DNA of 37,755 bases from a virus: the IMG/VR virus record IMGVR_UViG_3300025117_000152, positions 1 through 37,755 of that record. One strand, given 5' to 3'. Made by a program: the position numbers and the translations under genes. The notes below the pieces were generated by a model. That model made no database searches, was not told the origin of the DNA, and saw only the letters and a list, made by a program, of their open reading frames with translations. Positions 32,604-34,692 of this stretch are shown in pieces (the stretch's first letter is position 1; the number at the start of each line of letters is the position of its first letter).

Positions 32604-33122
32604 ATGACTGCGAAGAAGCATAGCACTCTCACGCAAGAACGGCTTAAAGAATTACTGCATTATGATCCTGAGGCTGGGGTTTTTACTTGGCTTGTTAGAT
32701 CAGCGCAACGCATTAAGGTAGGTGACGAAACTGGATACCAACATCCTTCTTCTGGATATATATACATAAGGGTTTGCGGAAAGTTATATAGAGCGCATCG
32801 CCTAGCTTTTCTATATATGCTAGGAGAATTTCCTCCTAATGATGTGGATCACCGCGACGGATGTCCTAGCAATAATAAATGGAAAAATCTCAGGCATTCA
32901 ACCGACTCAGAGAATCAGCAAAATAGAAAATTATCTTCAAGCAATAAAACTGGGTTTACTGGAGTTAGCTATAACAATCGGCGGCGTAAATTTGTGTCTA
33001 CCATCCGTATTAGCAAAAAGAATCGCTGTCTTGGGTACTTTAACACTGCCGAAGAAGCGAACATCGCCTATTGCAAAGCAAAGGCAAAGCACCACGCCTT
33101 TCAGCCAGTCCCGCGAACCTAA
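32604..33122 (+). CDS. HNH endonuclease with AP2 domain (copy 2)
   Basis: 172 residues, the same layout as the gene at 14056-14580: ERLKELLHYDPEAGVFTWLV, HRLAFLYMLGEFPPNDVDHR, SNNKWKNLRHSTDSENQQNR, NKTGFTGVSYNNRRRKF and LGYFNTAEEANIAYCKAK. Markedly AT-richer than its neighbours, a sign of separate origin. Free-standing homing endonuclease is likely. Confidence 0.85.
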   Translation: MTAKKHSTLTQERLKELLHYDPEAGVFTWLVRSAQRIKVGDETGYQHPSSGYIYIRVCGKLYRAHRLAFLYMLGEFPPNDVDHRDGCPSNNKWKNLRHSTDSENQQNRKLSSSNKTGFTGVSYNNRRRKFVSTIRISKKNRCLGYFNTAEEANIAYCKAKAKHHAFQPVPRT

Positions 33123-33144
33123 TTACTTTCCTAACGGTGAAATT

Positions 33145-33384
33145 ATGAACAGCATACAGAAAATTATCGAAGAGATGCGACACGAGGCGCGAATTATTCG
33201 CGGCCTTGGCGTTGAGCAAACTATTGGAATAGCTATCGGACTTGAGCAGTACGCCGACCGCCTTGAGGCGTTGATGGGCGAGCCGGTGGCATGGACTGAT
33301 CCTGATGGTGATTTTTATCGAGAAAAGCCACCAGAAAACTGGATGCCGATACCGCTCTATGCACTGAAGGGTGAGGGGGAATGA
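33145..33384 (+). CDS. 79-aa hypothetical protein
   Basis: ATG at 33145. MNSIQKIIEEMRHEARIIRG, LEQYADRLEALMGEPVAWTD and NWMPIPLYAL. The last part (PVAWTDPDG to PLYAL) is a common tail of small phage proteins. Function unknown. Confidence 0.5.
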   Translation: MNSIQKIIEEMRHEARIIRGLGVEQTIGIAIGLEQYADRLEALMGEPVAWTDPDGDFYREKPPENWMPIPLYALKGEGE

Positions 33385-33849: not shown

Positions 33850-33872
33850 TAATGTTTTTATTGTGAGGCACG

Positions 33873-34679
33873 ATGAATGAGTTGGCACTTTTCGCGGGCG
33901 CTGGAGGAGGAATACTCGGCGGCAAACTGCTTGGGTGGAGAACAGTCTGCGCCGTGGAACTCAATACCTTTTGCGCGCGACGACTCATGCAGCGCCAAAA
34001 TGAAGGACACTTGGCACCATTCCCCATTTGGGATGATGTTTGTACCTTTACTGGAAAACCATGGCGCGGCATTGTTGACGTGGTATCTGGAGGTTTCCCC
34101 TGTCAAGATATCAGCGCGGCGGGCGCAGGCGCAGGACTTGACGGCGAACGAAGCGGGCTCTGGTCGCATATGGCGCGGATCATTGGCGAAGTACGACCCC
34201 GTTACGCATACGTGGAAAACTCGCCAGTTCTCACTTCTCGGGGGCTCGACAGAGTTCTCGGAGACCTGGCCAAGATGGGGTTTGATGCGCGATGGGGAGT
34301 TATATCTGCTGCCGATGTCGGAGCGCACCATTTGCGAGAGAGAATCTGGATTGTTGCCAACGCCAACAGTATGCGGGAACTACAACCGGAAAGGTGCGAG
34401 CCCAACATCAGGGGATGGGCTGATAACTGCTCTACGCAAGATGTGGCCGACGATGCTGGCCAGAGACTCACGGACGGTTCGGGGGGGGCGAGATCGATGA
34501 ACTCTTTGGGGACGGAACCGCTGATAACGCAAGTTGCGGAAGCGGAAAATCAAACCGATGGCCGATTGAACCCGACGTGGGTCGAATGGTTCATGGGGTG
34601 GCCAATGGGGTGGACAGATTGCGAGCCCTTGGAAACGGACAGGTTCCGCGAGTGGTTGCAGCAGCATGGCGGATATTAA
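33873..34679 (+). CDS. Cytosine-5 DNA methyltransferase, C-terminus out of frame
   Basis: Motif I LFAGAGGGILGGKLLG, motif IV GGFPCQDISAAG with the catalytic Cys, motif VI ENSP and motif VIII RERIWIV are all in frame. After the G8 tract at 34481 the frame yields the C-terminus of another family. The expected motif X (LGNGQVPRVVAAAWRIL) and target region (WPIEPDVGRMVHGVANGVDR) are present in the -1 frame, ending at 34687. One added base in the tract, or a -1 slip there, gives a normal protein of about 271 residues. The ribosome site TGAGG precedes the ATG. Confidence 0.85.
   Translation: MNELALFAGAGGGILGGKLLGWRTVCAVELNTFCARRLMQRQNEGHLAPFPIWDDVCTFTGKPWRGIVDVVSGGFPCQDISAAGAGAGLDGERSGLWSHMARIIGEVRPRYAYVENSPVLTSRGLDRVLGDLAKMGFDARWGVISAADVGAHHLRERIWIVANANSMRELQPERCEPNIRGWADNCSTQDVADDAGQRLTDGSGGARSMNSLGTEPLITQVAEAENQTDGRLNPTWVEWFMGWPMGWTDCEPLETDRFREWLQQHGGY
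33877..34500 (+). CDS. Overlapping second-frame protein of a known phage family
   Basis: The +1 frame inside the methyltransferase gene is open for 207 codons from an ATG 4 nt after the methyltransferase ATG. MSWHFSRALEEEYSAANCLG, RIWRGSLAKYDPVTHTWKT, STEFSETWPRWGLMRDGELY and SGLLPTPTVCGNYNRKGASP match a family I know as phage hypothetical proteins beside C5 methyltransferases. That family's usual C-terminus (NPTWVEWFMGWPMGWT) lies in the methyltransferase frame after the G8 tract, ending at 34679. The same -1 change restores both. Function is unknown. Confidence 0.6.
   Translation: MSWHFSRALEEEYSAANCLGGEQSAPWNSIPFARDDSCSAKMKDTWHHSPFGMMFVPLLENHGAALLTWYLEVSPVKISARRAQAQDLTANEAGSGRIWRGSLAKYDPVTHTWKTRQFSLLGGSTEFSETWPRWGLMRDGELYLLPMSERTICERESGLLPTPTVCGNYNRKGASPTSGDGLITALRKMWPTMLARDSRTVRGGRDR
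34481..34488 (+). repeat. G8 homopolymer at the junction of the dual-coding frames
   Basis: Eight consecutive G. With nine G (or six), both overlapping genes read through to their expected C-termini; with eight, both are broken. See findings. Confidence 0.9.
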
Positions 34680-34680
34680 C

Positions 34681-34692
34681 AAGCTAACAAGT
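34681..34692. repeat. 12-bp inverted copy of the repeat before the methyltransferase gene
   Basis: AAGCTAACAAGT is the exact reverse complement of ACTTGTTAGCTT at 33839-33850. The pair flanks the methyltransferase locus, and this copy covers the last codons of the -1 frame. Confidence 0.75.

Follow-up and report, generated by a model that had tools for sequence, protein, structure and literature searches.

We analysed a viral DNA record of IMG/VR (IMGVR_UViG_3300025117_000152), whose 37,755 bases are called the window here, and in it a locus where two long reading frames of the + strand overlap for nearly their whole length. The first one (frame 1, called alpha) runs from 33873 to 34679 and the second one (frame 2, called beta) from 33877 to 34500; the overlap, put forward in an earlier reading of the letters alone (the original prediction), was verified. 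The starts form a pair, ATGAATGAG (33873..33881), with the alpha ATG at 33873 and the beta ATG 4 nucleotides (nt) further at 33877, an arrangement that is near-universal among relatives, and a Shine-Dalgarno-like GAGG (33865..33868) lies 4 nt ahead of the alpha start and 8 nt ahead of the beta start. Frame 1 had been taken for a C5 cytosine methyltransferase through motif VIII, and this assignment holds: PF00145 matches amino acids (aa) 4 to 169 of alpha (E 9.9e-27), with motifs I to VIII and the PCQ motif present, and phrog_363 matches aa 1 to 207 (E 2.9e-56). As for beta, 207 aa as it stands, it matches phrog_1008 over aa 67 to 199 (E 2.7e-18).

A run of eight G (G8, 34481..34488), the only homopolymer of at least 8 bases in the window, is the site where the two frames exchange their tails, and the frame arithmetic by which the original prediction placed the exchange there is correct. 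Past this tract beta is truncated, and alpha (268 aa as it stands) runs into LNPTWVEWFMGWPMGWTDCEPLETDRFREWLQQHGGY, that is, into the beta tail with its motif IX segment LNPTWVEWFMGWPMGWTDC (34566..34622, assigned with hhalign); the final 40 residues of alpha match the tail families phrog_26627 and phrog_1008. Motif X (VDRLRALGNGQVPRVVAAAWRIL; ALGNGQVPRVVAAAWRIL) sits in the third frame, in the tail DRLRALGNGQVPRVVAAAWRILTS (34613..34687), which ends at 34687. In intact relatives, the motif IX segment belongs to the beta frame and the motif X tail to the alpha frame; in the window, the chain that carries motifs I to VIII is followed by motif IX and not by motif X.

With a probability that we put at roughly 0.7, the locus would encode a two-chain C5 methyltransferase on overlapping frames, with G/C tracts serving as a predicted joint switch and with the window copy in the swapped state.

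Both frames in the relatives

Since a search of viral contigs with the lone frame-2 protein yielded one locus only, alignments were used as queries, and several hundred loci were gathered through the frame-2 alignment, the methyltransferase alignment, and tract-pattern searches (L followed by a number is the label of an individual locus). Both frames are intact from start to end in 182 loci, of which 137 are non-redundant (below 80% identity in frame 2), a set recruited partly through frame 2; the overlap is 684–1083 bp long, with a median of 819. A search with the methyltransferase frame alone, which is blind to frame 2, found both frames intact in 65 of 72 readable loci. The long dual coding claimed for the window is thus real, as relatives keep both frames, and dual coding is the rule in this methyltransferase subfamily; it had also been called unusual, a description that does not stand in the sense of a peculiarity of this phage.

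Dual-frame loci are present in phages of Salmonella, Acinetobacter, Pseudomonas, Vibrio, and Microcystis, as well as in bacterial genomes, from Pseudomonas and Halomonas to verrucomicrobial metagenome-assembled genomes. Among cultured phages, Salmonella phage S9-5 and Acinetobacter phage ABMM1 are examples with an intact locus. At the level of similarity, two pigeon E. coli chromosomes contain DNA 94.5% identical to the Salmonella phage locus, and frame-2 relatives are found on plasmids of Acinetobacter, Leptospira, and Pseudomonas. Public records mostly annotate one of the two frames, such as alpha in L003–L005 or beta in Vibrio phage 1.291.O and Pseudomonas phage phPA-G. In DNA phages, it is very rare for two proteins under selection to overlap by 700–1000 bp, whereas here such an overlap seems to be the norm in hundreds of phages and prophages from many hosts, where one gene or the other is annotated. 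In Microcystis phage Mwe-JY08 (L091, 1–700), a methyltransferase of a more distant group, ending DRVDRCGALGNAVIPQI, also has an open second frame with a motif IX tail; judging from this locus, dual coding may extend well beyond the family counted here.

Synonymous-site constraint was measured from substitution counts in 42 independent pairs of loci, 3–15% diverged, with the third frame as a control. Relative to the rate of changes silent in both frames, those that are silent in frame 1 and alter frame 2 amount to 0.285 (0.281 if only transitions are counted), and those that are silent in frame 2 and alter frame 1 to 0.075; all these ratios are approximate, since no more than 154 changes fall into the doubly silent class. 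The third frame gave 1.34 (1.75 for transitions); the effect is therefore specific to frame 2, which is under purifying selection. Frame 2 is also free of stops over 160 codons in 137/137 loci, as against a mean of 3.4 stops, and 2.1% of sequences open, when synonymous methyltransferase codons are shuffled. A codon shuffle within each sequence was discarded as a test of conservation, because the shared ancestry of the relatives inflates it; with that test the third frame also seemed conserved.

Shine-Dalgarno-like 4-mers stand ahead of the start pair in 117 of the 137 relatives. Where alpha starts 3–6 codons upstream, an AAGGAG-like site is often located between both starts, inside alpha, and this position of the ribosome site points to a separate initiation of beta.

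G/C tracts and the exchange of tails

When motif IV followed by a G8 or longer was scanned for, at least 120 stretches were obtained; in the 80 listed loci from which run lengths and states were taken, the runs range from 8 to 17 bases, and the methyltransferase frame was scored as reaching motif X in 49 (L095, L129, and L142 not being clean examples among them) and as swapped in 18. Across 286 distinct loci, 27 of the 78 with a G/C run of at least 8 are swapped (the window among the 27) vs. 8 of the 208 without (p 5e-11); after clustering at 85% and with the window excluded, the figures are 7 of 22 tract loci vs. 3 of 95 (p 3e-4). In loci not chosen for their tracts, G/C runs of at least 8 are 7-fold denser inside the locus than outside (0.088 vs. 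0.013 per kb; p 2e-7), and A/T runs show no enrichment inside it. Close relatives differ accordingly in length and state: L110 (G14) is swapped and L190 (G15), 97.9% identical to it, is intact; L164 (G11) is swapped and L197 (G10), 99.0% identical, is intact. At the C-terminal tract, L455–L457 have G10 and are intact and L460 has G8 and is swapped, as is L250, while L128, with three tracts, exchanges its tails as the window does.

G/C tracts at several sites of the locus thus vary in length along with an exchange of tails. A phase-variable gene should have a homopolymer in its coding region and length variants with differing frame states; the former is seen in the window G8 and in the 7-fold enrichment, the latter in the relatives L110/L190 and L164/L197. 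The phase-variable switch, one of the options of the original prediction, is well supported for the family by the tract enrichment, the swapped counts, and the length pairs. Slippage in homopolymers such as poly-G is known to switch bacterial methyltransferases, the so-called phasevarions (reviewed in PMC3711429 and PMC11868660). Those are bacterial and single-frame, whereas here, in a phage, one slip hits two proteins and exchanges their tails. Among 369 bacterial genomes, all from a single class, the tract pattern was found in the already known Gallionella copy only.

Whether the window itself is an off copy has to be weighed against a possible, though less probable, explanation, the remaining option of the original prediction, in which dual coding holds but the eight Gs were miscounted in assembly or sequencing and the actual phage is intact in both frames. 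The window is a single contig, the closest intact relatives lack a tract there, and swapped copies are a minority in the family; however, other contigs are swapped at other C-terminal tracts (L128, L460, and L250), and error alone would not produce a bias in which G/C, and not A/T, tracts are enriched in the locus. Furthermore, eight-base runs are seldom miscounted by short-read assemblies.

We consider it unlikely that the tract is a slippery site, with transcriptional or translational slipping on the Gs making some full-length chains from the swapped gene. There is a precedent, since a product arising from a frameshifted gene by slippage bypass was found for M.HaeIII (PMC3812077), and by analogy some product could be obtained in this way from the swapped gene. 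Against a signal programmed in the family, both frames are conserved in relatives and the tract at the window position is not: the close relatives L216 and L221, and also L266, are intact without it. Tract sites, moreover, are spread over ~20 codon positions, whereas a programmed −1 frameshift would have its slippery site at one conserved position. The programmed −1 slip, another option of the original prediction, is therefore unlikely, because intact relatives have no tract at the window site.

Two side observations concern the tracts. Seven loci (L059, L082, L249, L274, L321, L325, and L397) are swapped without a G/C tract of at least 8, and some of these tract-less copies have frame-2 open reading frames (ORFs) of 409–453 aa that end in methyltransferase motif X; they represent either ordinary indels or tracts since lost. 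In addition, the contigs of L357, L279/L350, L114, and L147 end in or just past a G or C tract of the locus, one of these runs being an implausible G43; assemblies seem to break at the locus tracts, which a tract length varying within the population would explain.

Frame 2 as a probable second methyltransferase chain

The original prediction had assigned frame 2 to a separate phage protein family. The match to phrog_1008 agrees with the family, but an unrelated protein is improbable, as the C-terminal part of beta corresponds to the target-recognition/motif IX region of a methyltransferase. In intact loci, motif X lies in the alpha frame, and 216 of 251 carry a motif IX-like E-W-x-M-G-W-P in the +1 frame (undetected in 35); motifs IX and X are, therefore, in different frames of the intact relatives. 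When compared by hhalign with single-chain actinophage methyltransferases, the C-terminal half of the beta family is aligned with a probability of 97% (E 9.5e-11), vs. 0.3% for the alpha family used as a negative control; the aligned parts are the recognition repeats (LLPTPxAxD) and the EWMMGWPxGW segment of the single-chain enzymes. In beta, it is the LPTP/WPTP repeats that fall on the recognition region of the single-chain enzymes; the variable region of alpha gave no assignment either way. One single-chain member was modelled with AlphaFold, and its model, confident over the IX–X end, matches M.HhaI (E 1.7e-13 over 426 alignment columns, 327-residue target, TM-score ~0.5). Searches of Pfam, NCBIfam, and PDB by sequence returned no identity for frame 2, and the AlphaFold model of beta was dropped as a structure-search query, being too poor.

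In C5 methyltransferases, motifs I–VIII and X make up the large domain, and the recognition part and motif IX the small domain (PMC3404938); the division between the frames therefore follows the division between the domains. With the target-recognition/motif IX region located in the C-terminal part of beta, both frames appear to be chains of a single enzyme, and these alignments make frame 2 the probable second half of the methyltransferase.

Mycobacteriophages have single-chain enzymes and also split ones, in which alpha ends past motif VIII and the +1 ORF holds the recognition region, IX, and X. Examples of C5 methyltransferases split over two overlapping ORFs and annotated as two DNA methylases are L087 (Mycobacterium phage Alma, 1080–2100) and L482–L503; Streptomyces phages Lilbooboo (L088) and phiBT1 (L089) are split in the same manner. 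In phiBT1, gp9.1 is annotated as possibly inactive, yet a +1 ORF with the remainder of the enzyme follows directly after it.

Split C5 methyltransferases and phase-variable methyltransferases are already known, so the kind is not wholly new. The small chain of M.EcoHK31I was reportedly found by Lee, Kam and Shaw in 1995 to be read from another frame within the large-chain gene. This two-chain enzyme (recognising YGGCCR) has motifs I–VIII and X on its large chain and IX on its small chain (PMC3404938), and intact relatives of our locus, compared by description only, resemble it in that IX has its own chain and X stays with the catalytic one, a layout that the tract disturbs in the window copy. 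Unlike in M.EcoHK31I, the genes here share their start and end with 684–1083 bp of overlap, occur in hundreds of phages, and contain G tracts, and no obvious restriction gene adjoins the locus in the window. In M.AquI, motifs I–VIII are on one chain and the recognition part, IX, and X on a second (PMC3404938). The separation of catalytic motifs and recognition/IX is shared with our locus, but in M.AquI motif X joins IX, whereas in our locus it remains on the catalytic chain and the two genes overlap almost completely. IX and X are together on the small chain only in the mycobacteriophage split pairs, which closely resemble M.AquI (Alma gp83/gp82), and not in intact relatives. As for phrog_363 and phrog_1008, matched by frame 1 and frame 2 respectively, these families are annotated as separate or fused proteins, whereas most phage records here annotate one frame. 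In the open-access literature searched, we found neither this dual coding described nor any account of phage C5 methyltransferases that switch by poly-G, and no description of such breadth of overlap, phage spread, and joint switch.

The two-chain enzyme that we favour would work as follows. Alpha would be the catalytic large domain, with motifs I–VIII and X, and beta would consist of a new N-terminal half overprinted on motifs I–VIII, followed by a target-recognition-like region and motif IX, i.e., the small domain. Beta would be translated and bind alpha, both chains being needed for methylation, and tract slippage would act as a reversible on/off switch for both at once, the window copy being in the frame-swapped, predicted off state at its C-terminal tract. 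Such switching would probably let phage DNA methylation vary among progeny that meet hosts whose restriction systems differ. Were the frames indeed two chains of a single enzyme, one message would supply both equally and one mutation would switch both; a phage methyltransferase switched by a G tract would let a single infection release differently methylated progeny and thereby hedge cheaply against restriction. It would, then, be wrong to write off a frameshift in a locus of this kind as a pseudogene.

Several points weigh against this proposal. The EWMMGWPxGW segment is co-linear with motif IX of M.HhaI, yet the direct alignment is not significant. AlphaFold gives no confident fold for beta alone (pLDDT 56, pTM 0.23), which fits an obligate partner without being evidence for one. 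The recognition domain of M.EcoHK31I is reported in the large chain (PMC3404938), whereas the recognition-like repeats here align with beta. On the side of the switch, tract loci come mostly from metagenome assemblies, where long G runs may be miscounted, and switching within one population would have to be deduced from different contigs.

We regard as rather improbable that frame 2 is a conserved independent protein, e.g., a regulator or an anti-restriction factor, that merely shares the DNA of the methyltransferase; the early idea of an unrelated anti-restriction protein was abandoned after the motif IX alignment. Such a protein would suit the N-terminal half of beta (~140 aa), for which Pfam, NCBIfam, and PDB hold no recognisable homologue and which is as open and conserved as the rest, but the C-terminal half aligns to the recognition/motif IX region, alpha lacks motif IX, and the split mycobacteriophage enzymes place this region in the same +1 frame. 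Quite speculative, too, is an extension of the two-chain enzyme in which the swap is more than an off state: tract slippage would make chimeric chains (catalytic N-terminus with beta tail, or beta N-terminus with motif X) with a predicted activity of their own, the frames would be a reservoir for exchanging recognition regions, and this process would also have given rise to the actinophage enzymes, both single-chain and split. Finally, although composition can keep overlapping frames open, an untranslated frame 2, kept open merely by the sequence and codon choice of the methyltransferase, is very improbable in view of the shuffles (2.1% open vs. 100% of loci), of the selection seen on frame 2 and absent on the third frame, and of the conserved ATG and ribosome site.

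Surroundings of the locus

The window also encodes a terminase, Bet/RecT-like and RecE-like recombination genes, an HNH gene, a spanin, and an amidase. The methyltransferase locus closes a rightward gene run and faces the lysis genes. A further ORF (32839–33384) overlaps the end of the HNH gene (32604–33122) in another frame; its true start is probably located further in, past the HNH gene.
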